DNA from: Pseudomonas parafulva
Lineage (GTDB): Bacteria; Pseudomonadota; Gammaproteobacteria; Pseudomonadales; Pseudomonadaceae
Direction: 5' to 3'
Length of the DNA stretch: 64,000 nucleotides
Assembly (NCBI RefSeq): GCF_000800255.1
Contig: NZ_CP009747.1
Location: 1,984,001 to 2,048,000, forward strand
Positions within the stretch are counted from its first letter, which is position 1, and each line of letters opens with the position of its first letter. The notes beneath the pieces were generated by a model that was not told where the DNA came from, did no database searches, and was given only the letters and a program-made list of their open reading frames with translations. Positions 1-21,275 of this stretch are shown one piece after another. The position numbers and the translations under genes were made by a program.

Positions 1-2343
1 CCGAGCGATCAGCTCGGCGCCGAGCGCATCGCCCCCGCACATCAGGCACAGGCGCGGCAACACGCGCTGCGGCTGGGACGCCACCAGCAAGGCGTTGAGG
101 TGCGATGGCACGATCTTCAGCAGGTCCACGGGCTGGTCTTGCAGGGTATCGGCCAGGCCCTCGGCATCGAACGCAAGTGATTCGTCCAACAAGCGCAGGC
201 GTCGGCCGCTGAGCAGCGCACCGAACAGCGCCGTGTGTCCCAGGTCGGTGGCGCAACTGGCCAGGCTGGCCAAGCTGGCATCGGCGGGCAGGTCCAGTCG
301 GGCCAGGCAGGCGCTGACGTAGTGGATGAGGTTGCCGTGGCTGACGATCACGCCCTTGGGACGGCCACTGGAACCGGAGGTGTAGACCACGTAGGCCGGC
401 GTCTCGGGCGCCAACTGCGGGCGCAGGCCGATGGTTGGAACGTCTTTCAAGGAGGTGGGCTCCAGCCAGGCGATGGCGGCCGGCAGCCACTCAGGCCGCG
501 CCGCTTGGCCAATCCACAGACACGGCTGCGCGTCTTCGCAGATGGCCTGCTGGCGGGAGGCGGGCCAGGCCGGGTCGACCACCAGGAAGGTCGCGCCGCA
601 CTGCCACGCGGCCAGCATGTGCAGCACCAGCGCGCGGCTGCGGGGCAGGCACAGGGCGATGCGCTGGCCTGGCAGAGGCGCGCCCTGCCCTTGCAGGTGG
701 GCGGCGAGCACGGCGACCTGGCGACCCAGGGTGGCATAGTCCAGGCAGCCGTGCAGGTCTTCGAGGGCCACGGCCGCAGGGCGCTGCACGGTCTGCTCGA
801 CGAAGGCCTGCCAGGCATTGTCGAACACCGGCGCGCAGGTCTCGCCCTGCAATTGCGCCTGCTCGTGGGGCGCCAGCCAGTCCAGGTCGGCGAACGGCAC
901 ATCCGGGCGCTCCAGCACTGCCTGCACCAAGCCGATGAACTGGTCACGCAAGCGGTCGACAGTGTCCTGCCGATACAGCGCCTTGCTGAAACGCCAGCGG
1001 CAATGGAAATGCCGGTCTTCGTCGTTGATCACCAGGTTCAGCGCATGGGCAGCGCCGCGCTGCTCGGCGAACAGGCGCTCGACATGCACCTCGTAGGGCA
1101 TGGAACGGTCCTTGTTCAGCGTGAACATGTGCTGGAACAGGGCGCGGCCGTGCTCGCGCGGCAGCGCCAATTGCTGCATCAGGCGGGCGAACGGGTAATG
1201 CCGGTGCTGCAAGGTCTCTTTCACCTCGCGCTCTACGCAGCGCGCCCAGTCGATGCTCGATAGCGTCGGTTGCAGGGTGCAGCGCAAGGCCAGCGGATTG
1301 ACCAGGTAGCCTGGCATGCGCAGGTGCTCGCGACGCAGTCGCCATCCGGCAGGCGTGCCCAGCACGAAATCGGTCTGCCCCGACAGCACGCCGAGGTATT
1401 GCTGGAATAGCGAAAGCAACAGCACGTAGGGCGTCACGCCAATGGAACGGGCCAGGGCGCGAATGCGTGCAGTATCGGTCTCGTCGAACCTGGCCGAGGT
1501 ATCGCCGCCTACGTGGGCGGGCGTGTCGCTGGTAACGAAGTCAGTCGGCAGCACCAGCGCCGGGGCGTCCTGCAAGCGCGCCTGCCACCAGGCCAGCTCG
1601 CTCGCCTGCTCGGCCTCGCTGCGCCGATACAGGGCGCTGCCGAAGTCGCGGTAGGCCTGCGCATCGACCGGCGCCAGGGGCTGGCCGGCGAGGTGCGAGA
1701 TCAGCTCGTCGACGATGATCTGGTAGATGGTCGCACCATCGGCGGCGATGTGGTGGATGCCCAACAGCAGGATGTAGTCGCAGCCTTCGGCGTGCCGGTT
1801 ACAGACCAGCGTCAGGCGGCTGACGTCGCCACTGGCCAGATCGAACGGTTCGTCGGCCAAGTCCGTGAGACGTTGGTGCAGGGCCTTCGGGTCGGCCGCC
1901 TGCAACTCGACCTGGCGCAACCCAAGCCACTGGGTCGGCGCGCCGCGCTGCACAGGCACGCCGTCGCGCTCGGCGAACGGGCTGCACAGCAGCGGATGGC
2001 GGTGCTGGACGTCATGCCAGGCGCGTTGCAGACGCGGCACCAAGTCTTCATCGAGCAGCGACGGCTTGAGCCGTGCGGCATAGGCGATGTTGTAGGCGCA
2101 GCTTTGCGGCTCCAGGCGGTGCAGGAACCACAGCGCCTGTTCGTTATCGGTCAGCGCACGGTCGCGGAAATACGCCGGGTGGGCGTCGAGCCAGCGCACC
2201 ACGTCGGCGCCGTGGCTGCGTAGCGCTTGGGCGATCGACTCGTCCAGCGCGCCAGGTGGCGCATGGTCGACAAGCACTTCACCTGCGCGGGCGGACAGAC
2301 GAATGCCGCGCAGCCAGCAACCCTGCATCAGACGATCGAGCAT
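1..2343 (-). CDS. Non-ribosomal peptide synthetase, N-terminal part (docking-C-A), partial
   Basis: The reading frame is open from an ATG at 2343 to the window edge, 781 codons, and continues to the left. Residues 1 to about 55 look like a TubC-type N-terminal docking domain (LMQGCWLRGIRL then a short helical repeat). A condensation domain follows with the HHIAADG motif at residues 197-203. An adenylation domain starts near residue 500; its A3 loop, YTSGSSGRPKGV, is at 654-665. By alignment to GrsA, the first specificity positions are D700, L701, T704, K743, M768 and G770, i.e. DLTKMG, matching the start of the Asp (DLTKVG) and Asn (DLTKLG) codes. The remaining code residues, carrier domain and any later modules lie outside the window. 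An AAGGA ribosome site precedes the start. It lies 57 bases downstream of the SyrP-like hydroxylase gene on the same strand. Inference: a siderophore synthetase module activating Asp. Confidence 0.9.
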   Translation of the reverse strand, partial: MLDRLMQGCWLRGIRLSARAGEVLVDHAPPGALDESIAQALRSHGADVVRWLDAHPAYFRDRALTDNEQALWFLHRLEPQSCAYNIAYAARLKPSLLDEDLVPRLQRAWHDVQHRHPLLCSPFAERDGVPVQRGAPTQWLGLRQVELQAADPKALHQRLTDLADEPFDLASGDVSRLTLVCNRHAEGCDYILLLGIHHIAADGATIYQIIVDELISHLAGQPLAPVDAQAYRDFGSALYRRSEAEQASELAWWQARLQDAPALVLPTDFVTSDTPAHVGGDTSARFDETDTARIRALARSIGVTPYVLLLSLFQQYLGVLSGQTDFVLGTPAGWRLRREHLRMPGYLVNPLALRCTLQPTLSSIDWARCVEREVKETLQHRHYPFARLMQQLALPREHGRALFQHMFTLNKDRSMPYEVHVERLFAEQRGAAHALNLVINDEDRHFHCRWRFSKALYRQDTVDRLRDQFIGLVQAVLERPDVPFADLDWLAPHEQAQLQGETCAPVFDNAWQAFVEQTVQRPAAVALEDLHGCLDYATLGRQVAVLAAHLQGQGAPLPGQRIALCLPRSRALVLHMLAAWQCGATFLVVDPAWPASRQQAICEDAQPCLWIGQAARPEWLPAAIAWLEPTSLKDVPTIGLRPQLAPETPAYVVYTSGSSGRPKGVIVSHGNLIHYVSACLARLDLPADASLASLASCATDLGHTALFGALLSGRRLRLLDESLAFDAEGLADTLQDQPVDLLKIVPSHLNALLVASQPQRVLPRLCLMCGGDALGAELIAR

Positions 2344-2400
2344 TGGAGATCCTTCATGTATGAATGCGGTCAGGGCCGATCGCTCGGCCCAGCGAATGGA

Positions 2401-3384
2401 TCACTGGCCGGCGAACGGCTCTGCCATGGCGACCACGACCTTGCGTGGACCCTGGAAGGTCGAACGGCCATGGGCCACGAGCATGTTGTCGAGCATCAGC
2501 ACGTCGCCGGCCTGCCAAGCGAAGGTGACCTGGCACTGCTCGAGAACCTCGCGGATGTGCGCCAGCGCCTGCTCTTCGATGGGCGAGCCGTCGCCGTAGA
2601 AGACATTGCGTGGCACCCCCTGCTCGCCGACGATCGACACCAGGGTTTCGCGTACCGCAGGCGCCAGGTTGGAGAGATGGAACAGGTGGGCCTGGTTGAA
2701 CCAGACCCACTCGCCACTGACCGGGTGTTGAGCGACCGCCTGGCACACCTGGCGGGTGGACAGTTCGCCCTCCTCGTCCCACTGGAAATCGATCTGGCTG
2801 GCGCGGCAGTAACGTTCCACCTGATCACGGTCGTCGGTGCTGAAGGCCTGTTGCCAGGTCAGGTCCAGGCCGTTGCCGTAGTTGCGCACGTACATCAGGC
2901 GCTTGTCGGCGAAACGCTGGCGAATGGCGGGGTCGAGTCGCTGGAACACCTCGCGGCTGTCGGCAATCGGCGTTTCGCCGCCGACCGGCGAGGCGGTGAT
3001 GCAGTGGAACCAGATCTTCATCGGCCAGCCTAGCGAGTAGGACTGTTCGTTGTGCAGGGGAATGACTTGGTGCGCGGGGTATTCGGTGGAGGTGTAGACG
3101 CGGCTGTTGAGCCGGGTGCGGGGCGTGGATGCGTAGTCGTAGGTCAGCAGTTCGTGGCCGAAGCTGCGGGCGAAGGCTTCGAAATCCGTCTCGTCGGAAA
3201 AGTCGAAGCCCCTGAGCAGCACGCCACCGACCTGTGGCAACTGCTGCTCGATGCGGTGTACGAGCTCCGGCAGTTCACCGCGCCAACCGGCGCCGGGCTG
3301 TCGGGGCGTGATCACCAGCGGGAGAGCCCTCTGGCCCTCAAGATCGACTGCCCGCTCCTGCACCCGTACCAACATGCTCTCCAT
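2401..3384 (-). CDS. SyrP/TauD-family Fe(II)/2-oxoglutarate dioxygenase, probable aspartyl beta-hydroxylase
   Basis: A 327-residue TauD/TfdA-fold enzyme. The iron ligands are visible: H111-x-E113 (LHNEQSY) and the distal H305 (LVAHGRS), followed by the 2-oxoglutarate-binding arginine region (GPRKVV). An acidic HxE instead of HxD is common in the SyrP-like branch. Members of this branch that sit beside NRPS genes hydroxylate the beta carbon of Asp (or His) on the carrier protein. The gene is directly upstream of an NRPS whose adenylation domain has an Asp-like code, which supports aspartate beta-hydroxylation for a siderophore. The exact substrate is an inference. The start ATG has GCGAGGA upstream. 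A taurine dioxygenase role is unlikely, because no sulfonate transport gene is nearby. Confidence 0.85.
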   Translation of the reverse strand: MESMLVRVQERAVDLEGQRALPLVITPRQPGAGWRGELPELVHRIEQQLPQVGGVLLRGFDFSDETDFEAFARSFGHELLTYDYASTPRTRLNSRVYTSTEYPAHQVIPLHNEQSYSLGWPMKIWFHCITASPVGGETPIADSREVFQRLDPAIRQRFADKRLMYVRNYGNGLDLTWQQAFSTDDRDQVERYCRASQIDFQWDEEGELSTRQVCQAVAQHPVSGEWVWFNQAHLFHLSNLAPAVRETLVSIVGEQGVPRNVFYGDGSPIEEQALAHIREVLEQCQVTFAWQAGDVLMLDNMLVAHGRSTFQGPRKVVVAMAEPFAGQ

Positions 3385-3500: not shown

Positions 3501-4436
3501 TCACGGCGCATCTTGCAGCAAATGGTCGCGCTCGGCGATGTGTGACATCAGCAGATACGCCGAACCGATCAGACCTTGCATCGTGTCCGGAAAACGGCTG
3601 CGGTTGAAGTAAAGAAACTGTCGATTCTTCACGGCGAACAGATTCTGCCATTGCGCCGAGCGGCGGAACGCAGCGGTGCTGGCTTCGGAGCCGAGCATCT
3701 CTTCGTAGGTGTCGATGATGAAATCGCTGTTGAAGTCGCCAATGCGCTCAAGGCTGTAGGGCACATTGCGACGCGCCTCGCGGTAGGCCGCCACGCGGCC
3801 CAGGCCGAAATCGGCGATCACATCGTCCATGCCGCCACGACCGATCAATTGAAAGCCGTCCGGGTACACCTCCAGGGTGGTCACGGTAATGCGTTCGGGC
3901 TGCTTGACGCGCTTTTTGAACTCACTCACCACCCATTGGTATTCCTTGAGCAATTCCTGATAGCGCGACTGCTTGCCGACCAGGTCGGCGAGCTGACTGG
4001 CGTAGGTCTTGATATCGCCCTCGCGTACCGGCAGCAGCACCACGGGCGCAATGCCCGCCAGTTTTTCCTTGAGATCGGCCTGATAGGACAGCCCGACGAT
4101 CAGGTCGGGCTTGAGCGCGGCGATGGCTTCGATATCCGGTGCCTGATGCGAGCCGACGTAGCGGATGGCACTGACATCGAAACGCTCCTGCACGCCACGC
4201 AGGGTGACATCGGAGAACAGCTTCTTGCGCCCCGTGGAGCCGCAGGGCGTGATACCCAGTTCGAGCAACTGCGCTGTCAGGCTGAAATCATGCAGCGACA
4301 CCACGCAGCGCGGCGCCACGGGCACTTGCACGCGGCCGAACTGATTCTCGAAGGTGCGGGTCTCGGCTGCCGTGGCGGGCGGTATGAGGCAGATCAGCAG
4401 CAGGCACAGCAGTCCGGTCAATTGGCGCAACATCAT
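3501..4436 (-). CDS. Periplasmic iron-siderophore binding protein (FecB/FepB-like)
   Basis: A 311-residue protein with an N-terminal signal peptide (hydrophobic LLCLLLICLIPP, then ATAAE as the cleavage site) and the class III binding-protein fold: the N-lobe has VVSLHDFSLTAQLLELGI, the central part has PDIEAIAALKPDLIVG, and a long helix links it to a C-lobe ending near LIGSAYLLMSHIAE. It would bind a ferric siderophore in the periplasm and deliver it to the FecCD permeases encoded just upstream in the operon. I see no convincing lipobox, so it is probably soluble. Two in-frame ATG codons are adjacent (4436 and 4433). The ligand is unknown, but the linked NRPS suggests the siderophore made by this locus. 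Confidence 0.88.
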   Translation of the reverse strand: MMLRQLTGLLCLLLICLIPPATAAETRTFENQFGRVQVPVAPRCVVSLHDFSLTAQLLELGITPCGSTGRKKLFSDVTLRGVQERFDVSAIRYVGSHQAPDIEAIAALKPDLIVGLSYQADLKEKLAGIAPVVLLPVREGDIKTYASQLADLVGKQSRYQELLKEYQWVVSEFKKRVKQPERITVTTLEVYPDGFQLIGRGGMDDVIADFGLGRVAAYREARRNVPYSLERIGDFNSDFIIDTYEEMLGSEASTAAFRRSAQWQNLFAVKNRQFLYFNRSRFPDTMQGLIGSAYLLMSHIAERDHLLQDAP

Positions 4437-4473: not shown

Positions 4474-5520
4474 TCAACGACTGCGTTGGCGCGCCAGCAG
4501 CAGCATCAGGTACGGCGCACCGAGCAAGGCCACCACCAGCCCCGCCGGGATCTGCAATGGCGGCAGCAGGCCTCGCCCGAGGGTATCGCCTGCCAGCACC
4601 AGCAACGCACCGAACAGGGCCGACAGCGGCAGCAACGCGCCGTGTCGATCGCCGGCGAGCTGGCGGGCCAGATGCGGCGCCACCAGGCCGACGAAGGTCA
4701 TGGTGCCGACGTTGGCCACCGCTGCCGCGGTCAGCATCACACTGCTCAACAGCAGCAAGCCCATGGTGCGGGTCACGTTCAGGCCGCGACTCAAGGCCAC
4801 GCTCTCGCCCAGTTGCAGCAGGTTCAGCAGCCGATGGCACAGCAGCAGCGGCAGGCCCGCCAGCAGCAGCCAGAGGCCGAGGCTGTACACCTGCGGCCAA
4901 CCGCTGCGGTGCAGGCTGCCACCCAGCCACATCAAGGCCGACTCGACATGATCGATATCGCCGTAGGTGATGATCAGGTCGGCGACGGCGCTGAGAATGG
5001 CGGTGAGCCCTACCCCGATCAGGATCAGGCGCAATGGCGAGATGCCCTGGCGCCAGGACAGCACCGCAACCAGTGCCGCTACCGCCAGGCCACCGCCCAG
5101 TGCGGCCAGCGGATAGAGCGCAGGGGACAGCAACTGCGGCCAGAGCACCATGATCAGCAACATGGTGACGCTGGCGCCCGACTCCACCCCCACCAGACCA
5201 GGCGCGGCCAGCGGATTGCGCGTCAGCGACTGCATCAACAGGCCGGCCAGGGCCATGGCGGCGCCGGCCAGGACCGCCAGCAGCACGCGCGGCAGACGCA
5301 ACTCCCTGACCAGGTTGAGCACCGTGGGGTCAGCCCGCTCAGGTTGGGTCAACGCCTGCCAGACCGTGCTCAGCCCCATGGGGTAGCTGCCCACGGTGAG
5401 CGCGTAGAGTCCAAGCGCCACCGTGGCCAGTATCAATAGCAGCGTCCAGATCAGATCGATGGGGCGACCGAACACCGGCAGCGGATGCCAGCGTCGAGGC
5501 AACAGCAGAACGCTTTTCAT
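4474..5520 (-). CDS. FecCD-family iron-siderophore ABC permease (second subunit)
   Basis: A 348-residue, very hydrophobic protein of the FecCD/BtuC permease family. Typical segments are visible: LRLPRVLLAVLAGAAMALAGLLMQ near the N-terminus, NPLAAPGLVGVESGA, and GLVAPHLARQLAGDRHG (the coupling-helix region that contacts the ATPase). About ten membrane helices are expected. The ATG at 5520 overlaps the stop of the preceding permease by one base (TGATG), so the two subunits are probably translationally coupled and form a heterodimer in the inner membrane. A longer upstream extension of the frame runs into the other permease gene and is not used. Confidence 0.9.
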   Translation of the reverse strand: MKSVLLLPRRWHPLPVFGRPIDLIWTLLLILATVALGLYALTVGSYPMGLSTVWQALTQPERADPTVLNLVRELRLPRVLLAVLAGAAMALAGLLMQSLTRNPLAAPGLVGVESGASVTMLLIMVLWPQLLSPALYPLAALGGGLAVAALVAVLSWRQGISPLRLILIGVGLTAILSAVADLIITYGDIDHVESALMWLGGSLHRSGWPQVYSLGLWLLLAGLPLLLCHRLLNLLQLGESVALSRGLNVTRTMGLLLLSSVMLTAAAVANVGTMTFVGLVAPHLARQLAGDRHGALLPLSALFGALLVLAGDTLGRGLLPPLQIPAGLVVALLGAPYLMLLLARQRSR

Positions 5521-6509
5521 CAACGTACCTTTCTCAAGACCAGCACGACGAAGATCGGCCCGCCGATCAGCGCGGTGACGATGCCGGTGTTCAGCTCGAA
5601 CGGCCGCACCAGGGTGCGAGCGGCGAGGTCGGCCAGCATGACCAGTTGCGCGCCCAGCAATGGCGCTGCCAGCAGCAGCCGCCGGTAGTCGTTGCCGAAC
5701 AGCAAGCGCGCCGCATGCGGCACCACCAGCCCGACGAAACCGATGGGACCGGCCAGGGCGACGGCGCAGCCGGAAAGCAGCACCACCGCCAGCAGACCCA
5801 GCAGACGCATCTTCAACAGATTCACGCCCATGCCGGCCGCCGCCTGGGCACCCAGCCGGTGGATGTTCAAGGCGCGCAGGTTGATCAGGCACAGCAGCAT
5901 GCCCAGGGCCATCCACGGCCAGACCCAGCGCTGCACCGAGCTGTCGGTCAGACCGATGGAGCCGGTGAGCCAGCGTCGCAGGCTGTCCATGCCTTGCTGA
6001 TCGAGCAGCAACAGGATCGCGGTAATGGCACTGAACAGCGCCGCGATCATCGCCCCGGACAGGGTCAGGCGTACCGGGTTATGCCCTCGGCCAGCCAGCG
6101 CCAGGACGCCGACCGCCGCGACCAGGGCGCCGGCGAAGGCGAACAGCGGGATCATCGACAGGTCGTTGCCGGGCAGCACCAGCAGGCCGAACACCACGAA
6201 CAGCGCCGCGCCACTGTTGATGCCGAGGATGCCGGGGTCGGCCAGTGGGTTGTCGCCGATCGCCTGCATCAGGGTACCGGCCAGGCCGAGGCTGGCGCCG
6301 ACCATGATCGCCACCAGCAAGCGCGGCAAGCGCGAGCCGCGCACGATGCTTTGGTCCGGGTCCGAGGGCACGTAGGCCACCAGCGCCTGCCAGGCCTCGC
6401 TCCAGGGAATCGACTTGGCGCCGAAGGCCAGGTGCGCCAGCGCCGTGACCAGCAATACCGCCAGCACGGCGAACCACAGCGGCAGGCGCAGTGAAGTGGA
6501 CGGCTTCAC
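5520..6509 (-). CDS. FecCD-family iron-siderophore ABC permease (first subunit)
   Basis: A 329-residue FecCD permease. Family segments: SRLPRLLVAIMVGASLGLAGTLMQ, DNPLADPGILGINSGAALF, and GLVVPHAARLLFGNDYR (coupling region). I chose the GTG at 6509 as start because it overlaps the ATPase stop in a GTGA arrangement and places the first membrane helix (LPLWFAVLAVLLVTALAHLAFG) properly. The longer alternative from 6563 would lie inside the ATPase gene. Together with the neighbouring permease it should form the membrane channel of the siderophore importer. Confidence 0.88.
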   Translation of the reverse strand: MKPSTSLRLPLWFAVLAVLLVTALAHLAFGAKSIPWSEAWQALVAYVPSDPDQSIVRGSRLPRLLVAIMVGASLGLAGTLMQAIGDNPLADPGILGINSGAALFVVFGLLVLPGNDLSMIPLFAFAGALVAAVGVLALAGRGHNPVRLTLSGAMIAALFSAITAILLLLDQQGMDSLRRWLTGSIGLTDSSVQRWVWPWMALGMLLCLINLRALNIHRLGAQAAAGMGVNLLKMRLLGLLAVVLLSGCAVALAGPIGFVGLVVPHAARLLFGNDYRRLLLAAPLLGAQLVMLADLAARTLVRPFELNTGIVTALIGGPIFVVLVLRKVR

Positions 6510-7312
6510 TGCGCCACCCGCAGCGCACTGGCACGCACCGCGGACTTGGCGGCTGGCACGCACAGCGGCACGCCCGTGTGGGGATCGGTGATGATGTGGG
6601 CGTCGAGGTCGAACACCGCTTTGAGATTGGCGGCGGTGAACACCTCGCGCGGCGGGCCTTCGGCTTGCAACTGACCGTCACGCAGCATGACCAGATGGTC
6701 GGCGTAGCGCGCGGCCTGGTTGAGGTCATGCAGCACAGCGACGATGGTCTTGCCCTGCTCGCGCAGGCTGACCAGCAGTTCGAGCAGGGTCACTTGGTGG
6801 GCGATGTCGAGGAAGGTGGTGGGTTCGTCAAGCAGGATCACCGGCGTGTCCTGCGCCAGCGTCATGGCGATCCAGCAGCGCTGCAACTGCCCGCCCGAGA
6901 GCGTGGCCAGGGAGCGGTCGAGCAAGGGTTCGATGCCGGCCAGGGCGATGGCCTGATCGCAGGCCTGCTGATCGGCGGGCGACCACTGTTGCCACCAGCT
7001 CTGCCAGGGAAAACGCCCCTGCATCACCAGTTCGCGCACGCTCATGCCTGCCGGCGAGGTGGTGCGCTGGGGCAGCAGCGCCATGCGCTGGGCCAGCTCG
7101 CGACGGGAAAAGTGCGTCACGGGTTGGCCGGCCAACCGCACCTCGCCGGCCTCGGGGCGCAACATCCGCGCCAGCACGTTCAACAAAGTGGTCTTGCCGC
7201 AGCCGTTGGCGCCGATCAACGCGGTGAAGGCCCCTTGCGGAACCTCAAGCGTCACGCCCTTCAACACCTGTTGCTCACCGTAGCTCAGCTTGACTCCGCT
7301 GGCCTCGAGCAT
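6506..7312 (-). CDS. Iron-siderophore ABC transporter ATP-binding protein (FecE/FepC-like)
   Basis: A 268-residue ABC ATPase with all nucleotide-binding motifs: Walker [10 protein letters not shown], signature [13 protein letters not shown], Walker [13 protein letters not shown] and the H-loop histidine in [14 protein letters not shown]. The signature LSGGQ and overall length fit the FecE/FepC/FhuC family that powers ferric-siderophore import. It is the first gene of a minus-strand run ATPase, permease, permease, binding protein, dioxygenase, NRPS, and is divergent from a TonB-dependent receptor gene, so a shared iron-responsive control region is likely at 7313-7572. Confidence 0.92.
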
Positions 7313-7572: not shown

Positions 7573-9765
7573 ATGCTGCGCATAACAACAGCCCGCACTC
7601 GCAAGAACCTTCCTGCATTCAAGTTCACGACGATCGCCCTGGCCCTGGGAGGGATGCTCTCGGCGCAGGCTCACGGGGCCGAACAGAGCGCCGCGCCCGG
7701 CGCCGCCGTCATCGAGCTGGGCGACACCACGGTCAGCGCCCAGGCCCTGGAAAACCCCACCGGCACGCTGCCCGGCAAAGTCGCCCTGCGCAACGCCAGT
7801 GCCACCAAATCCAATGCAGCCATTACCGAAACGCCGCAGTCGGTGTCGGTGGTGACCGCCGATGACATGAATGAGCGCAAGGCCGACACCTTGGCAGACG
7901 CACTGAGCTACACGCCAGGGTTCACCAGCCAGCCGAGCAGCTTCAACCGCACCGCCGACCGCTTCCGCATGCGCGGCTTCGATGTGGAGTCCGCGACCGG
8001 CGGTTCGATGCGCGACGGCATGCGCCTGCAGAACAACTCCTACGAGGGCGTGCAGGAGCCGTTCGGCCTGGAGCGCGTCGAAGTGGTGCGCGGCGCGGCC
8101 TCGGTGCTGTACGGCCAGTTGTCGCCCGGCGGCTTCGTCAACGGCATCAGCAAGCGTCCGACCGAGACGCCGTTGCACGAGCTGGGCCTGCAATATGGCA
8201 ACCACGACCGCAAGCAGTTGACCGGCGACTTCAGCGGCCCGCTGGGTGACAGCGACACCCTGAGCTATCGCCTGACCCTGTTGCAGCGCGACAGCAACAC
8301 CTCCCAGGACCACATCAACGACGACAAGCTCTACATCGCCCCGGCGCTGACCTGGCGTCCCAACGAGGACACCTCGCTGACCCTGCTGTCGTTCTACCAG
8401 AAGAGCGACACGCGCTTCTCCGCGCCCCTGCCCTACCAGATGGTCAAGCATGTGGGTAAAGGCCCGTTCACCATCGGCCGTCACGACTTCATCGGTGAGC
8501 CGTCCTACGACGACATGAATGGCGAGATGTCCGCCATTGGTTACGAATTCGAGCATCGGTTCGATGAGCACACGCGCATCAGCAACAAGCTGCGGTATTA
8601 CGAATCGGATGTGAAGTGGAAGTACCTGCAGGCCACCCCCGCCTCGGTGGCTGCCTCGGCCAGCACAGGGGTGTTGCGTCGCCAGTACAGCGACCGCCGT
8701 GAGCGTTCACGTGCGCTGGCCAGCGACACCAACGTGGAAAGCCGCTGGAACATCGCCGGTATGGAGCACACCTTCCTGGTGGGCGTGGATACCTACGATG
8801 CGTCTTATGACTCGCACAACTTCCGCGGCAATGCGCCCAGCCTCGACCTGAGCCGCTACAACTATGGTCAGCCCGTTGTGGTCAACAAGAACCCAAGCCA
8901 GGACCGCGGCTCGCAACTCGACACCCTGCAAACCGGCCTTTATTTCCAGGACCAGATCCGTTTCGACGAGCGCTGGTTGCTGTTGCTCGGCGGTCGTCGC
9001 GACTGGGCCGACCAGGATCAACGCGCCTTCCGCAACGGTCAGAAGCTCAAGCAAGACGACCAGGCTACCACCTGGCGCGCAGGGCTTGTCTACCAGGCCG
9101 ACAACGGTCTTGCGCCGTACGTCAGCTACAGCGAGTCGTTCTTCCCGGTGGGTGTGGCCGAATTCACCGGGCAGACCTTCGACCCGACCAAAGGCAAGCA
9201 GTATGAAATGGGCATCCGCTACCAGCCCCATGACAGCAACATGCTGCTCAGCGCGGCGGTGTACGAGTTGACCCAGGAAAACGTGGTGAAGACCGATTTC
9301 AACGGCAATGCGCAGCAGATCGGCGAGCAGCGCTCGCGTGGCCTGGAACTGGAAGCCAAGGCGGACGTCACACCCCAGCTGACCCTGCTGGCGTCGTACG
9401 CCTACACCGATGCGCGCATCACCAAAAGCGCCAATCCCAGCGAGAAAGGCCAGCGCAGCGAAGACACGCCCTACCACCAGGCGGCCCTGTGGGCCGACTA
9501 CAACTTCGGCCTGTTCGGCGTGCCGCAACTGAAAGTCGGCGCCGGAGCCCGTTATAAAGGCACCACCCAGGCCTCGGGCATCGACTCGCAGATGCCCGCC
9601 TACACCCTGTTCGACCTGCGCGCCAGCTACCAGTTGAACAAGAACTGGGACGTGGCCATCAACGCCAACAACGTCACCAACAAAGCCTATACGTATTGCG
9701 AGTTCGCCATCTGCCGCTACGGTGACGAACGCGAAGTGGTCACTTCGGTGAACTTCCGCTGGTAA
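7573..9765 (+). CDS. TonB-dependent ferric-siderophore receptor
   Basis: A 730-residue outer-membrane receptor. A signal peptide (residues 1 to about 35, ending AQAHGAE) is followed by a TonB-box-like DTTVSA, a plug domain (ETPQSVSVVT; RGFDVESATGG; VEVVRGAASVLYGQLSPGGFVN) and a 22-strand-type beta barrel ending in VTSVNFRW with a C-terminal Trp. The plug sequence is that of the FhuA/FpvA-like siderophore class. The plug starts soon after the signal peptide, so there is no STN signalling domain and no sigma-regulator cascade is expected. A good ribosome site (AAGGACATTTAG) precedes the ATG. Its place opposite the siderophore importer suggests it takes up the siderophore made by this locus. Confidence 0.93.
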   Translation: MLRITTARTRKNLPAFKFTTIALALGGMLSAQAHGAEQSAAPGAAVIELGDTTVSAQALENPTGTLPGKVALRNASATKSNAAITETPQSVSVVTADDMNERKADTLADALSYTPGFTSQPSSFNRTADRFRMRGFDVESATGGSMRDGMRLQNNSYEGVQEPFGLERVEVVRGAASVLYGQLSPGGFVNGISKRPTETPLHELGLQYGNHDRKQLTGDFSGPLGDSDTLSYRLTLLQRDSNTSQDHINDDKLYIAPALTWRPNEDTSLTLLSFYQKSDTRFSAPLPYQMVKHVGKGPFTIGRHDFIGEPSYDDMNGEMSAIGYEFEHRFDEHTRISNKLRYYESDVKWKYLQATPASVAASASTGVLRRQYSDRRERSRALASDTNVESRWNIAGMEHTFLVGVDTYDASYDSHNFRGNAPSLDLSRYNYGQPVVVNKNPSQDRGSQLDTLQTGLYFQDQIRFDERWLLLLGGRRDWADQDQRAFRNGQKLKQDDQATTWRAGLVYQADNGLAPYVSYSESFFPVGVAEFTGQTFDPTKGKQYEMGIRYQPHDSNMLLSAAVYELTQENVVKTDFNGNAQQIGEQRSRGLELEAKADVTPQLTLLASYAYTDARITKSANPSEKGQRSEDTPYHQAALWADYNFGLFGVPQLKVGAGARYKGTTQASGIDSQMPAYTLFDLRASYQLNKNWDVAINANNVTNKAYTYCEFAICRYGDEREVVTSVNFRW

Positions 9766-9778
9766 AGGCCTGTGAGCA

Positions 9779-9810
9779 GCGCAGCACGCCGCCTACGGCG
9801 GCTGCGCTTT
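9779..9810. terminator. Hairpin between convergent genes (receptor and IclR regulator)
   Basis: GCGCA, a four-base bulge, GCCGCC, loop TAC, GGCGGC, TGCGC and then TTT. It begins 14 bases after the receptor stop and abuts the stop of the convergent IclR gene, so it probably terminates transcription from the left and possibly from both sides. Confidence 0.6.
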
Positions 9811-10513
9811 AAATGCCAGGGGCCTGCGGTTTGTGCCCCAGACTGCGCATCAAATCCCGCGCCGTCTCGAAGAACATCTGCTTGAGGCTTTCGGCACACT
9901 CCTCGGTCAGCCGATTGGCAGGCCCCGAGATGACCAACGCCCCCATCGACTCCCCCTGCGCCCCATAGATCGGCAAGGCCATTGAAGCCGCGTGCGGATC
10001 GGTGGCGCCCCGGGAAAAGAACGGCTTCTGCAGAGCGATGCCGATGTCATACGGTGCCCGCAACGCCTGCGCACCGGCCGCCTCGTCCATGGGACGCATG
10101 TCGCCAGGCTGTAGGTTCAGGCGCAGCCGGTGCGACGAGTTCACTCGGTACTGGCACATCCGGTACGCGCCGTGCCTGACGTAGAACGACGCCGTCTCGC
10201 CGGACTGCTCGGCCAAGTGGTGCAGACGCGGCATGACATGCCGCTCCAGATCCAGTGCCTCTTGATACACCGCATTCAGACGCATCACCTCGCTGGCCAG
10301 TTGGTAACGGCCATCGGCCATGCGCGTGATGAAGCCGTGGGTTTCCAACGAGACCATCAAACGCATGATGGTGCTCTTGATCAACCCGGTACGCTCCACC
10401 AACTGCACCAGACTCAGGGCGGTATCACCGATCTGGAACGCCGTGAGCACGGTCAGCACACGGTCGGCCGATGCCACACCATTGACTGCGGGACGTGGCC
10501 GCGCTTTTACCAT
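9809..10513 (-). CDS. IclR-family transcriptional regulator
   Basis: A 234-residue regulator with an N-terminal winged helix-turn-helix (LSLVQLVERTGLIKSTIMRLMVSLETHGFI) and a C-terminal IclR effector domain (ETASFYVRHGAYRMCQYRVNSS; ASMALPIYGAQGESMGALVISGPANRL). IclR proteins usually control catabolic genes next to them and respond to small acids. The genes to its right (MFS exporter, RraA-like aldolase, dehydrogenase, anion:cation symporter) are the likely targets. The ATG at 10513 is preferred over an upstream start because GAGG lies 8 bases before it. Confidence 0.88.
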   Translation of the reverse strand: MVKARPRPAVNGVASADRVLTVLTAFQIGDTALSLVQLVERTGLIKSTIMRLMVSLETHGFITRMADGRYQLASEVMRLNAVYQEALDLERHVMPRLHHLAEQSGETASFYVRHGAYRMCQYRVNSSHRLRLNLQPGDMRPMDEAAGAQALRAPYDIGIALQKPFFSRGATDPHAASMALPIYGAQGESMGALVISGPANRLTEECAESLKQMFFETARDLMRSLGHKPQAPGI

Positions 10514-10597
10514 TTGAACAACCTCGTCTGATCGGTAGTCTGGTCCCCTCGTGGGCCAAGCGCGCATTATCCGCCAATGCCCTGCTCGGCGCCACGG

Positions 10598-11872
10598 TCA
10601 GCCTCGCAGCGCGGCCTTGTAGCGGGCTACGCAGGCAGTACCGAGCGCCAGCAGCAATAGCGCCCCGGCCACGCCCAGCGTCGCCGGGGCACCGAATTGA
10701 GCGGCCAACACCCCGGCGATCATGCCGCCCAGCGCCTCGAAGCCAAAGCGCAACGCGATGTAGAACGCCACCACGCGGCCGCGCAAAGGCCCTGGCGCCT
10801 CGCTCTGCAACTGCATATTGGTACTGACATTGCTCAGGGTGATGCCGAAACCGAGTATCGCCAAGGCGGCCAACGCCAGCGGTAGCACGTTGGCCAGGCA
10901 CAGGCCGACCAGCGACACCGCGCACAGCAACGCGCCTGCGACCGTGAACCGACCCAGCCGATGCAGCGCGCCGCCTACCGCCAACACCACGGTGGCGACG
11001 AATGCACCTGCCCCTGCAGCTCCCCACAGCCAGCCCAGGATGCGGGCATCGCCGGCGAACACTGCCTTGGCCAGAATGGGCAACAGTGCTGCGTAGCAAG
11101 ATGCCAGCAGATTGACCAGCACCACATTGATCAGCAACTGGCGCACGCTGGCGGTGTGCCAGAGATAAGCCAGGCCTTCACGAAACACCTGCGCGGTCGA
11201 ACCGCTGGCGCGCGGGCTATCACCGCCGCGCACCTCGAGCAGCCCTGCGAGCAAGGCGGTGAAACCGATCGCCGTCAGGGCGAAACAGGCCGCCTCGCCG
11301 GCCAGCGCGATCAAGCCACCGGCCAACGGCGGGCCGACGAAACGCGCGGCATTGATCAGCATGGCATTGAGCACCAGCGCATTGGGCAAGTCCGCAGGCT
11401 CATCGACGAAGCTGCCGATCAACGCTTGGCGCAGCGGGGTTTCCAGCGCGTTGAGCAGCCCAAGCAGCAGCGCCATGCCGGCGATGAAGGGGCCATCGAC
11501 CCATTCACACCACGTGGCTAGGGCCAGCACGGCAGACTGCCCCACCAGGATCGACTGAACGATGATCAGCAGTCGCCGTTTGTCGTGACGATCGATCCAG
11601 GCACCGGCCTGTGGGCCGATGAGCAGTTGCGGTATGAGCGACAGAAAGGTGATCAGACCGAGCAGCACCGCAGAACCGGTCAGGTGATAGGCCAGCCACG
11701 CCAGCGCCACCTGCTGCACCCACTTGCCTAACGTGGAGATGCCCTGGCCGGCGAAATAGATCTGGAAGTTGCGATGAGCGAGCGCCCGAATGGCCGAAGG
11801 CCAGCGGGCGCGAGGGGATGACGACAGGTGGGGCAACGAGCGAATCCTCAGTGACGGACCCACCGCCAGCAT
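10598..11872 (-). CDS. MFS transporter (EntS-like, MFS_3 family)
   Basis: About 424 residues with a 12-helix major facilitator pattern. The N-terminal half begins RNFQIYFAGQGISTLGKWVQQVALAWLAYHLTG and carries WIDRHDKRRLLIIVQ, the loop 2-3 basic signature. This is the MFS_3 group, which includes the enterobactin exporter EntS and other efflux proteins. The substrate cannot be told from sequence. It could export the locus siderophore or belong with the catabolic genes; it lies between the IclR regulator and the RraA-like gene on the same strand as both. The start is uncertain: the ATG at 11872 has no good ribosome site, and in-frame TTG codons both upstream (11902) and downstream are possible. 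Confidence 0.82.
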   Translation of the reverse strand: MLAVGPSLRIRSLPHLSSSPRARWPSAIRALAHRNFQIYFAGQGISTLGKWVQQVALAWLAYHLTGSAVLLGLITFLSLIPQLLIGPQAGAWIDRHDKRRLLIIVQSILVGQSAVLALATWCEWVDGPFIAGMALLLGLLNALETPLRQALIGSFVDEPADLPNALVLNAMLINAARFVGPPLAGGLIALAGEAACFALTAIGFTALLAGLLEVRGGDSPRASGSTAQVFREGLAYLWHTASVRQLLINVVLVNLLASCYAALLPILAKAVFAGDARILGWLWGAAGAGAFVATVVLAVGGALHRLGRFTVAGALLCAVSLVGLCLANVLPLALAALAILGFGITLSNVSTNMQLQSEAPGPLRGRVVAFYIALRFGFEALGGMIAGVLAAQFGAPATLGVAGALLLLALGTACVARYKAALRG

Positions 11873-11921
11873 CGCCCATCGCCTGCGACGCGCCCTGGAC
11901 AAGGCGCGCCGTGGATAGGGT

Positions 11922-16242: not shown

Positions 16243-17391
16243 ATGACCGAGCATTTTCTACCCTTTTCTCGTCCGAGCATTGGCGAGCAAGAGATTACCG
16301 CCGTTGCACAGGTGCTCCGATCAGGCTGGATCACCAGCGGGTCGAAAAATCTGGAGCTCGAACAGCGCTTTGCCGAGTACGTGGGCGGCAAACATGCAGT
16401 TGCACTGTCCAGTGCTACCGGCGCATTGCACGTCACGCTGCTGGCGTTGGGGATCGGCCTAGCAGATGAAGTCATCACGCCTTCGCTGACCTGGGTTTCG
16501 ACAGCCAACATCATTTCACTGATCGGCGCCACGCCGGTGTTCGTGGACGTCGATCGGCACACCCTGATGTGCGATGCACAGCATGTACAGGCCGCCATCA
16601 CCCCGCGAACGCGGGCAATCATACCCGTTCATTTCGCCGGAGCCGCACTGGACCTGCGACCTCTGCGAGCCCTTGCAGAACAGCACGGCATTGCGCTGAT
16701 CGAAGACGCTGCCCATGCGGTGGGAACCGAGTATTGCGATGCTCGGATCGGCGCCAGCGGCACCGCCATCTTTTCATTCCACGCCATCAAGAACCTGACC
16801 TGCGCCGAAGGCGCCATGCTGGTCACCGACGACCACGCGTTGGCCGATCGCGTGCGGCGCCTGAAATTCCATGGACTGGAAGTTGACGCGTTTGATCGCT
16901 CGAGCCAAGGCCGGCGCCCCCAGGCGCAGGTCATCGAGCCAGGCTTCAAGTACAACCTGGCGGACATCAATGCGGCCATGGCGCTGGTTCAGTTGCGACG
17001 GTTGGAAGCACTCAATGCCAGGCGCCACGCGCTGGCCGAACAGTACACCGCTCGCCTGGCCGATCTGCCCGTCAAGCCGCTGGCTGTTCCGACCTACCCG
17101 ATCCGCCACGTCTGGCACCTGTTCATCCTGCGCATCGATGAGCAGGCCTGTGGCCTGACTCGCGACGCGTTCATGGACGCCATGAAGCACCAGGGTATTG
17201 GCTGCGGCATCCACTTCATTCCTGCACACCTGCACCCCTACTACCGCCAGGCCTATCCGGATGTTCGACTGCCGGAGAGTGAATGGAATGCTTCGCGGCT
17301 GTGCTCGATTCCACTGTTCCCCGACATGCAGAGCCACGACGTTGAACGGGTTGTTTCAGCCATCGAACACTGCCTGGAGCGCCGAGGATGA
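16243..17391 (+). CDS. arnB: UDP-4-amino-4-deoxy-L-arabinose--oxoglutarate aminotransferase
   Basis: A 382-residue PLP-dependent enzyme of the DegT/DnrJ/EryC1 family. It converts UDP-Ara4O to UDP-L-Ara4N with glutamate as amino donor. Visible features: N-terminal [20 protein letters not shown], the PLP-binding region [13 protein letters not shown] and [12 protein letters not shown], and the Schiff-base lysine in [14 protein letters not shown]. The family's full length is present. It opens the arn operon and its stop overlaps the arnC start (ATGA). A GAGG ribosome site precedes the ATG. A short leader inverted repeat (GGAACC, AATG, GGTTCC at 16198-16213) lies just before it. Confidence 0.96.
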
Positions 17392-18398
17392 AGCCGGCAT
17401 CATTCAAACTCGTCTCGATCGTGATTCCGGTATTCAACGAAGAGGCAAGCCTTCCCCAGTTGTTGAGCAGGACGCTTGCCGCCTGCAGTCGTCTGTCGCA
17501 ACCGTTCGAACTCATCCTGGTGGATGACGGCAGTCGCGATCGTTCCTCGATGATCATGCAGGAAGCAGCCTCGGTCGAGGGCAGCCCGGTGGTGGCCGTA
17601 CTGCTGAACCGAAACTATGGCCAGCATGCGGCGATTTTTGCAGGCTTCGAGCAGTCCGCCGGGGATCTGATCATCACCCTGGATGCCGACCTGCAGAATC
17701 CACCTGAGGAAATCCCACGGCTGGTCGAGCAAGCCGCCTGTGGCTATGACGTGGTGGGCTCGGTCCGCGCGCGCCGCCAGGACTCAGCATGGCGACGCTG
17801 GCCCTCGCGGCTTGTCAATCGAGCGGTCAAGAGCGCCACCGGGGTGGCCATGCACGACTATGGCTGCATGCTGCGCGCCTACCGTCGCCCGATTGTCGAC
17901 GCCATGCTCAAGTGCCAGGAACGCAGCACCTTCATTCCCGTGCTGGCCAACAGCTTCGCCCGCCACACCTGCGAAATCCACGTCGCCCATGCCGAGCGTG
18001 AGCATGGCGAGTCAAAGTACAGCCCGATGGGCCTGCTCAACCTCATGTTCGATCTGCTCACCTGCATGACCAACATGCCCCTGCGCCTGTTGAGTCTGTG
18101 CGGTGCAGCCATGGCCAGTGCTGGCTTCGTGCTGGCCTGCGCGCTGGTGCTGCTGCGCCTGACATTTGGCGCGGCCTGGGCCGGTAACGGTCTGTTCGTG
18201 TTGTTCGCCGTGTTGTTCATGTTCAGCGGCGTCCAGTTGCTGGGCATGGGGCTGCTGGGCGAATACCTGGGCCGCCTGTACAGCGACGTCAGGGCGCGCC
18301 CGCGATTTCTGATCGAGCACGTTATCAGAGCCTGTCCTGCTTCGCGCCCGGTACCGCCGGAGCCTGCCAATCCGCTTCCTTCTGCCAGGGAATCCTGA
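17388..18398 (+). CDS. arnC: Undecaprenyl-phosphate 4-deoxy-4-formamido-L-arabinose transferase
   Basis: A 336-residue family 2 glycosyltransferase. It moves Ara4FN from UDP to undecaprenyl phosphate on the cytoplasmic face of the inner membrane. The N-terminal GT-A domain starts [17 protein letters not shown] and has the metal-binding [13 protein letters not shown]. Two C-terminal membrane helices are visible ([21 protein letters not shown] and [30 protein letters not shown]). It starts within the arnB stop (ATGA overlap) and ends 4 bases before arnA. Confidence 0.96.
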
Positions 18399-18402
18399 CG
18401 AC

Positions 18403-20391
18403 ATGAACGTCAAAACCGTTGTCTTTGCCTATCACGATATCGGTTGCACCGGCATCGAATCACTTCTCGAGGCCGGCTACGATATTTGCGCGGTCTTCAC
18501 CCACATCGATCAGCCTCAGGAACGGATCTTCTTCGGCTCCGTAGCGCGTCTGTGCGCTGAGCGTGGCATCCCGGTTTACGCCCCCGAAGACGTCAATCAT
18601 CCCCTGTGGGTGCAGCGCATTCGCGAGCTCGAGCCGGACTTCCTGTTTTCCTTCTATTACCGCCAGCTCTTGGGCGAGTGTATCCTCGCCTGCGCCAAGC
18701 GCGGCGCATTCAACCTGCACGGGTCCCTGCTGCCACGCTACCGAGGCAGAGCCCCAGCGAACTGGGCCATCATCAACGGCGAGACGCAGACCGGCGTCAC
18801 CCTGCACCGAATGGTCGGACGCGCCGATGCCGGACCGATCCTTGCTCAAGTTCCGGTAGCCATCGCCGAGACCGATACTGGTCTGAGGCTTCAACAGAAA
18901 CTGCGCGCAGCAACCATTGGCTTGCTGCGCGAAAAGCTACCACTACTGGCGGCCGGTGGTCTCTCAGAGGTGCGGCAGGATGAAGCCCAGGCCAGCTACT
19001 ACGGCCGCCGTACGGCCGCCGATGGCCTGATCGACTGGCAGCACCCGGCCAAACGACTCTACGACCTGATCCGCGCGTTGACCCATCCCTACCCTAGCGC
19101 CTATTGCCAGACCAGTGAGCACAAGTTGTTGATCTGGGACGCCGATGTCATCCTGGGCAACCTCGGTCAGCCGCCTGGCACGGTGCTGTGCGCCGATCCG
19201 TTGCGCATCGCCTGCGGGGAAGATTCGCTGGTGGTGCGCCATGCACAGCGCGGCGACCATGGTCTGTATCTCTGCGGTGCGGGCTTGGCCCGTGAGCTGG
19301 GCCTTGTGGAGGGAGCGTCGCTGAACGCGGCGCACCCGCCTGCAAAACGCCCGACGCGGGTGCTGATCCTCGGCGTCAATGGCTTCATCGGCAATCACCT
19401 GTCCGAGCGACTGTTGAGTGACGGCAACTACGAAATCCATGGCATGGACATTGGCTCGGATGCCATCGAACGGTTGAAGGACAATCCACAGTTCCACTTC
19501 GTCGAGGGCGACATCAGCATCCACAGCGAATGGATCGAATACCACGTCAAGAAATGCGACGTCGTACTGCCGCTGGTCGCCATCGCCACCCCCATCGAGT
19601 ACACCCGCAACCCGTTGCGCGTCTTCGAACTGGACTTCGAAGAAAACCTCAAGATCATCCGCTACTGCGTGAAGTACGGAAAACGCGTGATATTCCCTTC
19701 CACTTCGGAAGTCTATGGCATGTGCCAGGATCCGGAGTTCGACGAGGACAGGTCGAACCTGGTCGTAGGCCCCATCAACAAACAGCGCTGGATCTACTCG
19801 GTTTCCAAGCAACTGCTGGACCGAGTCATCTGGGCCTACGGGAAGCAAGGTCTGCGTTTTACTTTGTTCCGTCCGTTCAACTGGGTAGGCCCGCGCCTGG
19901 ATCGCCTGGACTCGGCGCGCATTGGCAGCTCGCGAGCGATCACCCAGCTGATCCTGCACCTGGTGGAAGGCACCCCCATACGCCTGGTCGACGGTGGCGA
20001 ACAGAAGCGCTGCTTCACCGATGTCGCCGACGGCATCGAAGCGCTGGCGCGCATTATCGACAACGAAGGAAGTTGTTGCGATGGGCAGATCATCAATATA
20101 GGCAACCCCGAGAACGAGGCGAGCATCCGCGAGTTGGGCGAAGCCTTGCTGCGTCAGTTCGATGCGCACCCGCTACGCGGCGAGTTCCCGCCCTTTGCCG
20201 GGTTTCAGTTGGTGGAGAACCGCACGTTCTACGGCGACGGCTACCAGGATGTCAGCCACCGCAAACCGCGCATCGCCAATGCACGGCGCTTGCTGCACTG
20301 GCAGCCGACCGTCGATCTGGAACAGACCATCGCCAAGACCCTGGACTTTTTCCTCAACGAAGCGCTCCGCGAGCGCGGGAGAGGCCAATGA
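18403..20391 (+). CDS. arnA: Bifunctional UDP-Ara4N formyltransferase / UDP-glucuronate decarboxylase
   Basis: A 662-residue two-domain enzyme. The N-terminal formyltransferase domain (about 1-300) carries the catalytic set N104, H106 ([13 protein letters not shown]) and D142 (GRADAGP). The C-terminal short-chain-dehydrogenase domain (about 315-660) begins [19 protein letters not shown] and contains [10 protein letters not shown] and [10 protein letters not shown], the S-Y-K set for oxidative decarboxylation of UDP-GlcA to UDP-Ara4O. Both halves are intact and the length is normal. The stop overlaps the arnD start (ATGA). Confidence 0.97.
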
Positions 20392-21275
20392 GTCGGGTGG
20401 GATTGCGGATCGATGTGGACACCTTTACCGGCACGCGTGAAGGCGTGCCCGCGCTGCTCGATCTGCTCGACGCCGCTGCGGTCAAGGCCACCTTCTTTTT
20501 CAGCGTGGGCCCCGACAACATGGGGCGTCACCTCTGGCGACTGGCCCGCCCGGCATTCCTGCACAAGATGCTGCGCTCGAAGGCCGCCAGCCTTTATGGA
20601 TGGGACGTGCTCCTGGCCGGCACGGCATGGCCTGGAAAGTCGATAGGCAACAAATTGGCACCGATCATGCGGCGCGCCCAGGAGGCGGGTCATGAGATCG
20701 GCTTGCACGCCTGGGATCACTACGCCTGGCAAGCCCACGCCGGCCGATGGCCGGATCACGTTCTGGTCGATCAGGTGCGTCAGGGCAAGGAATGCCTCGA
20801 AGACATCATTGGCCAATCGGTGACCTGTTCGGCAGCACCCGGCTGGCGGGCTGACACCCCTATCCTTTCGGCCAAGCAGGCGCTCGATTTTCGCTACAAC
20901 AGCGACTGCCGAGGCTGCGGAATCTTCCTGCCGCTACTGTCCGACGAATGCCCAGGCACCCCGCAGATTCCTGTGAGCCTACCGACTTTCGACGAAATGA
21001 CGAGGCCTGGATTGTCCTTGAACAGCTTCAACGAGCTCATCCTCGATCAACTGACCGCCAGCCGCGATGGCGTCTATACCGTCCATGCCGAAGTGGAAGG
21101 CCGGAGCATGGCCAGTGGATTCGAACAACTGCTCAAACGCGCCGCCTGGCGCGGCATCGACTTCAAGCCCCTCGGTACGCTGCTGCCGCAGGATATCCAG
21201 AGGCTGCCGATCGCCCCTGTAGTACGCGGGGCGGTGGCGGGCCGCGAAGGCTGGGTGGGGGTTCGTCATACATGA
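20388..21275 (+). CDS. arnD: 4-deoxy-4-formamido-L-arabinose-phosphoundecaprenol deformylase
   Basis: A 295-residue polysaccharide-deacetylase (NodB) family protein that removes the formyl group from undecaprenyl-P-Ara4FN. The metal-binding motif 1 is LRIDVDTF near the N-terminus, and the HxxxH-like [11 protein letters not shown] follows; SAAPGWRAD is motif 3. ATGA overlaps at both ends place it tightly between arnA and arnT. An upstream in-frame extension lies inside arnA and is not used. Confidence 0.95.

Follow-up and report, generated by a model that had tools for sequence, protein, structure and literature searches.

A seven-module assembly line in Pseudomonas parafulva predicted to make a peptide siderophore with three beta-hydroxyaspartates

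We analyzed a 64,000-nucleotide stretch of the Pseudomonas parafulva genome (hereafter the window; genome positions 1984001-2048000 on one 5,087,619-base contig, NZ_CP009747.1), at the left end of which lie part of a non-ribosomal peptide synthetase (NRPS) gene and the gene of an aspartate hydroxylase. The locus to which they belong is almost certainly a siderophore gene cluster. As read, it extends from genome position 1955002 to 1993765, its right-hand quarter inside the window and the larger part to the left of it, and includes four NRPS genes in one direction which encode seven modules, three of them Asp-coded, and a terminal thioesterase (TE). We consider it probable that this is a complete biosynthesis and uptake locus, and that the full scheme set out below, with three beta-hydroxyaspartates (OH-Asp) as Fe(III) ligands, applies; from the genes we infer that all three Asp residues would be hydroxylated and that the product would bind iron. 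A first-pass annotation of the window had proposed a probable beta-hydroxyaspartate siderophore. The proposal is supported: the full code of the first adenylation domain remains an Asp code, and the NRPS cluster on the left is of the siderophore type. Further Asp modules and an embedded or free hydroxylase partner had been named there as possible support; two more Asp modules were found in the cluster left of the window, together with a second hydroxylase that forms the C-terminal part of NRPS 3.

The locus has the features by which antiSMASH recognizes NRP metallophores of the beta-OH-Asp kind, as its rule is described in the available part of PMC12971057: an NRPS with condensation (C) and adenylation (A) domains adjoins a siderophore-type Asp hydroxylase, and siderophore transport genes (PF00593, PF01032, PF01497) are present. 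The enzyme types are already known. As far as the open-licence literature was searched, with the code strings among the queries, no described compound was found to match the assembly line.

Domains of the four NRPS proteins were assigned with Pfam, NCBIfam and a motif parse. NRPS 1 (genome 1986343-1981535) has the order C-A1-T-T-E, T being a thiolation and E an epimerization domain. It is followed by NRPS 2 (about 1981491-1972036, start codon putative; C-A2-T-C-A3-T-C-A4-T), NRPS 3 (1972033-1963019; C-A5-T-T-C-A6-T-C-TauD) and NRPS 4 (1963022-1959261; degenerate C-A7-T-TE). The specificity codes, the tenth residue of which (K) was appended by script and verified for the proteins of this locus, correspond to Asp in A1 (DLTKMGHIGK), A5 (DLTKIGHVGK) and A7 (DLTKVGHVGK). 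That of A2 (DIWELTADDK) is of the diaminobutyrate (Dab) type; we take it to specify Dab, a reading backed by a diaminobutyrate transaminase gene (NF005393 and TIGR00709, both above cut-off) left of NRPS 4. For A3 (DIVQIGGVYK), A4 (DMPQLGAVWK) and the Gly-like A6 (DILQLGVVWK), the second module of linear gramicidin synthetase A comes nearest among solved A domains, and 5u89 also ranks high; both are presumably Gly enzymes, so that the label Gly-like is a weak one for A3 and A4, which appear as X in the backbone. A survey gives the similar DILQLGMIWK for Gly (PMC12283262, available part). The backbone predicted from these codes is D-OHAsp-Dab-X-X-OHAsp-Gly(?)-OHAsp. No gene read from 1955002 to 1993765 was of the hydroxamate, catechol or third-hydroxylase kind, which leaves the three OH-Asp as the sole classical Fe(III) ligands predicted.

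The window contains the N-terminal 781 of the 1602 amino acids of NRPS 1 (1..2343, minus strand), the remainder being encoded at genome 1981535-1984000. Domain A1 occupies positions 1..798 on the minus strand and extends beyond the left end of the window. All six specificity residues read in the first-pass annotation (D700, L701, T704, K743, M768 and G770) are found at those numbers of the 1602-amino-acid open reading frame (ORF) crossing the window's left boundary, and the D-to-K spacing is 43, as had been noted. Positions 322, 330 and 331, at which a code for another residue could have appeared, are H794, I802 and G803, Lys517 corresponds to K978, and the full code, DLTKMGHIGK, is an Asp code. 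His at position 322 favours Asp over Asn. The Met at position 299, already remarked upon as unusual, is real but rare: it occurs in two of 68 NRPS 1-like proteins (68 of 120 listed proteins were examined), one of these two being the window's own 99% copy. When 15 genomes were searched with NRPS 4 and ten clusters (nine from Pseudomonas, one from Microbulbifer) were fetched, the same seven codes appeared in the same order in all ten, the only differences being single changes at A3 in one cluster, at A4 in two and at A5 in one. The Asp code of A1 is therefore not a chance resemblance, since it is of a type found in three of the seven A domains, the other four are clearly different, and all ten relatives preserve the arrangement of the seven. 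The code of A7, DLTKVGHVGK, has been assigned to L-erythro OH-Asp in tistrellabactin (PMC10391617, available part) and, in the survey mentioned above (PMC12283262), is common to Asp and Asn domains, mostly Asp.

The gene directly before NRPS 1 (2401..3384, minus strand) encodes a stand-alone Fe(II)/2-oxoglutarate aspartyl beta-hydroxylase of the TauD family. Its HxE...H ligands, predicted earlier, are present as H111, E113 and H305, with R314 in addition, and the HxE and the distal His align with structure 1y0z. The assignment of this enzyme to the SyrP branch does not hold. A tree of 32 proteins, from which a distant row of this genome (1474490) was excluded, shows a 100/100 split between a stand-alone clade, including the window's enzyme, and a clade of fused domains together with three stand-alone enzymes from P. 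cichorii, P. fuscovaginae and P. gingeri. Genes adjoining the first two encode a SyrB1-like A-T protein, a SyrB2-like PhyH protein and a SyrD-like ABC protein, names that we give presumptively; on account of these neighbours we read both enzymes as SyrP-like. As the SyrP-like enzymes sit in the fused-domain clade, the window's enzyme is not of their branch; it is the fused TauD domain of NRPS 3 that falls in the clade holding them. The window's enzyme groups with stand-alone siderophore enzymes, apart from the fused domains and SyrP, which fits TBH_Asp, presumably the stand-alone subtype, of erythro type. The names TBH_Asp and IBH_Asp come from PMC12971057, which in its available part places the syringomycin clade within IBH_Asp, and the split in our tree agrees. 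For potashchelin, the available text of PMC7100376 assigns L-erythro OH-Asp to the stand-alone enzyme and L-threo OH-Asp to the fused enzyme, in a C-TauD-C-A(Asp) arrangement; one sentence of its introduction states the reverse. We infer that in our locus one stand-alone hydroxylase serves both modules 1 and 5. Elsewhere in the genome (1474460-1476342), a distant TauD-family gene lies directly before an AMP-binding gene.

The second hydroxylase is placed by its domain context. The C domain that precedes it keeps HHxxSD in all 11 clusters, and the N-terminal C-family domain of NRPS 4, which the Condensation profile matches at positions 169-452 only (E 1.1e-19), is without HH in 11 of 11. A C-terminal TauD domain is thus followed by an HH-less C-family domain, as in the fused interface type (IBH_Asp, threo), and the C-TauD-C-A(Asp) order across NRPS 3 and NRPS 4 is the potashchelin arrangement. 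Such a degenerate 'interface domain' reportedly positions the hydroxylase, according to Reitz et al. (2019). Profiles for interface-type domains are mentioned in the available part of the antiSMASH 8 paper (PMC12230676). As for module 1, NRPS 1 ends in a domain that scores above the TIGR01720 cut-off and clusters (100/100) with two others of this genome in which position and motif are of E type. The C domains downstream of those two form a group (99/94) with the first C domain of NRPS 2. Residue 1 is therefore predicted to be D.

A further peculiarity of the line is the presence of tandem T domains at Asp modules. T domains were counted by motif search, the counts being confirmed with Pfam for the proteins of our locus. 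Two T domains follow A1 in nine of 11 clusters (the exceptions being those of P. gingeri and Microbulbifer) and A5 in all 11, and a single one follows A7 in all 11; the modules of NRPS 2 and module 6 have one T each. In 80 loci (the best 80 of 145 encoding a relative), tandem T domains were found after 24 of the 62 A domains that carry the Asp-type NHYG motif versus 0 of 77 other A domains; five of the 62 and 48 of the 77 lie too close to an ORF or locus end for certainty, and the loci are related, so that the events are not independent. Among the NRPS 1-like proteins, 55 of 68 have two T domains and 13 have one. As single-T variants occur, the tandem T at Asp modules is common but not required. 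The searches of the open-licence literature listed no report on tandem T domains (or PCP) together with OH-Asp. We tentatively propose, with rather less than even confidence, a hexadentate product with the three OH-Asp as sole classical Fe(III) ligands, in which two hydroxylases would yield three stereochemistries (D after epimerization, L-erythro and L-threo) and the tandem T would be a clade-wide device by which a stand-alone hydroxylase gains time on the aspartyl intermediate or a place to dock at it, an interface domain and a single T serving the fused type instead. The natural one-T and two-T variants of NRPS 1 make the role of the tandem T at Asp modules directly testable.

A second NRPS cluster, pyoverdine-like by layout, lies to the right of the window (genome 2106500-2140452) and has two Asp-type A domains with a single T each; the stand-alone hydroxylase beside it has a 59% match to the window's enzyme. 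The idea that a tandem T always accompanies a stand-alone enzyme was dropped: in the 80 loci, 33 complete Asp-type modules have a single T, as do both Asp-type modules of this second cluster, next to another stand-alone hydroxylase.

The genes surrounding the NRPS are those expected for export and uptake. The ABC importer and TonB receptor said in the first-pass annotation to complete the locus are there in the form of a FecBCDE-like importer and a TonB-dependent siderophore receptor. On the minus strand are encoded a FecB-like periplasmic binding protein (Peripla_BP_2; 3501..4436), two FecCD-type permeases (4474..5535 and 5520..6500, both start codons putative) and a FecE-like ATPase (6506..7312). 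Divergent from this operon, on the plus strand, is a TonB-dependent siderophore receptor (7573..9765), which scores above the cut-off of TIGR01783 and below those of the FhuA and FoxA models. Left of NRPS 4 are found a cyclic-peptide-type ABC exporter (TIGR01194 above cut-off), which we take to be of PvdE type, an MbtH gene and, on the opposite strand, a FhuF siderophore-iron reductase (TIGR03951 above cut-off). To the right of the receptor, an MFS_3/EntS-like transporter (10598-11902) adjoins an IclR-like regulator (9809-10567; assigned by eye); neither gene had a match in the relatives' loci examined.

We propose that the stand-alone hydroxylase would oxidize the Asp carried by the T domains in modules 1 and 5, giving L-erythro OH-Asp, and that the E domain would then invert residue 1, in keeping with the type of the following C domain. 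The bond between residues 6 and 7 would be formed by the intact C domain that precedes the TauD domain of NRPS 3; this fused hydroxylase would use the degenerate C ('interface') domain at the start of NRPS 4 as its docking site and oxidize Asp 7 to the L-threo form. The TE would release the peptide and the cyclic-peptide-type ABC protein export it; the TonB receptor and the FecBCDE-like importer would return the ferric complex, and FhuF would reduce the iron.

Several observations weigh against this scheme. One or both of Asp 1 and Asp 5 could stay unhydroxylated. The A1 of our locus is the odd one, with Met299/Ile330 as against Val/Val in all ten fetched relatives, and NRPS 1 matches its counterparts in loci L027-L043 at 59-64%, lower than NRPS 2 (69-76%). 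In the hydroxylase tree, a long-branch warning was issued for one row (brassicacearum_SA351). A search of the window with one Fur box consensus, at up to three mismatches, gave no match. Lastly, the locus as read showed no acyl ligase, FAAL/CAL or loading module. Module 1 begins with an intact C domain (850..2142, minus strand; motif HHIAADG) that, going by the C-domain tree, may be of starter or of ordinary type; the product is perhaps N-acylated. Before this domain there is a weak TubC-type docking segment (2188..2310, minus strand; Pfam TubC_N E 0.017, below cut-off), and PF18563 is precomputed for several relatives.

It is possible, although we think it rather unlikely, that the same locus hydroxylates only two of the three Asp residues, for instance residue 7 by the fused and residue 5 by the stand-alone enzyme, residue 1 staying Asp and the terminal carboxylate, Dab or the N-terminal group completing iron binding. 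This overlaps with the three-OH-Asp scheme except on the number of hydroxylated residues. In its favour, two hydroxylases would match two residues, two OH-Asp are given for lactuchelin (PMC12904278, available part), the code of A1 stands out within the line, and two of the 11 clusters lack a tandem T in module 1; against this, the A(Asp)-T-T of module 1 is the same as that of module 5 in the other nine, and the stand-alone hydroxylase gene stands immediately before NRPS 1.

A lipopeptide siderophore of the corrugatin family, a type named in the first-pass annotation among those with beta-hydroxyaspartate, is very improbable. A P. brassicacearum cluster that we call ornicorrugatin-type from species and layout also has a stand-alone hydroxylase, A(Asp)-T-T, an A domain with A/D/D at 322/330/331 and C-TauD, then an Asp module, and one NRPS 1 relative (64%) is named P. 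corrugata. The module order of that cluster is, however, different, and its region holds a third TauD gene (146197-147162) that is not in our locus. Corrugatin has eight residues (PMC13037486), a number also predicted for the related SBW25 cluster (PMC4528175; both sources in part); the line described here has seven modules in another order, with three Asp, and with seven A domains it was rejected as a member of the eight-residue line. Less probable still is an NRPS for a syringomycin-like phytotoxin or antibiotic, with a SyrP hydroxylase: the hydroxylase family is shared, but the SyrP-like enzymes that have SyrB1/SyrB2-like genes as neighbours belong to the other clade, and it is a receptor, an importer, FhuF and a cyclic-peptide-type exporter that surround this NRPS. 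Mupirochelin, made by a salicylate/Thr/Cys pathway (PMC10080011, available part), was ruled out.

Among known systems, potashchelin of Halomonas sp. MG34 (PMC7100376) likewise relies on one stand-alone and one fused Asp hydroxylase and combines L-threo and L-erythro OH-Asp in one peptide, as predicted here; it differs in its nine residues, FAAL loading, cyclic hydroxyornithine and lack of an E domain, our locus having seven modules, three Asp, an E domain in module 1 and no hydroxamate gene seen. Corrugatin, ornicorrugatin and histicorrugatin are likewise Pseudomonas products, and the P. brassicacearum cluster shares A(Asp)-T-T-C-A(A/D/D)-T-C-TauD, with a Dab-type A domain and then A(Asp) on the next protein, but differs otherwise, gene order included; the third Asp module, the Gly-like modules and a TE right after the last Asp set our locus apart. 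The same series, together with a stand-alone hydroxylase and ending with A(Asp)-T on the next protein, occurs in a Cupriavidus cluster (L046), presumably cupriachelin-like, which differs in its flanking modules; the window's line adds an Asp module with an E domain. Lactuchelin of P. lactucae (PMC12904278) resembles the predicted peptide in having seven residues with OH-Asp first and last, and TauD, E and TE domains; a Dab-type second residue, Gly-like codes, a third Asp and four NRPS genes distinguish our locus. SyrP of syringomycin-type clusters, the substrate of which is aspartyl (PMC8949500, available part), is a TauD-family hydroxylase like the window's enzyme, of the other clade (split 100/100). 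The amphiphilic siderophores of Pseudomonas named in a 2026 discussion (PMC13037486) are the corrugatin family, lactuchelin and formomarinobactin; going by the residues given in the available parts of that paper and of PMC12904278, none matches the residue order of this line.

The same gene order, from the receptor through the ATPase, both permeases, the binding protein and the stand-alone hydroxylase to NRPS 1 and NRPS 2, recurs in 17 of 17 Pseudomonas loci (L027-L043). A close stand-alone hydroxylase (E <= 1e-140; the hydroxylase gene was counted, not the whole cluster) was present in eight of 199 sampled genomes of the genus, our own included, and the siderophore line appears to be patchily spread in it. 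The line carries a structural prediction that can be checked by liquid chromatography-mass spectrometry. OH-Asp is reported, in the available part of PMC10484230, to contribute to iron photoreduction in ferric cupriachelin; the product predicted here may therefore release iron in light.

Further NRPS-like genes were noted in this genome. Two very large NRPS ORFs of 3966 and 4358 amino acids lie at 2070966-2092585, with six of their seven C domains in one clade (perhaps a lipopeptide cluster), and a PvdL-sized ORF of 4364 amino acids is found at about 2.497-2.509 Mb. At 1953011-1953328 there is a short AMP-binding match to the first 103 profile positions only, perhaps a fragment. Within the window, a run of genes at 16243-22912 resembles, by eye from the ORF translations, an arn lipid A modification set.

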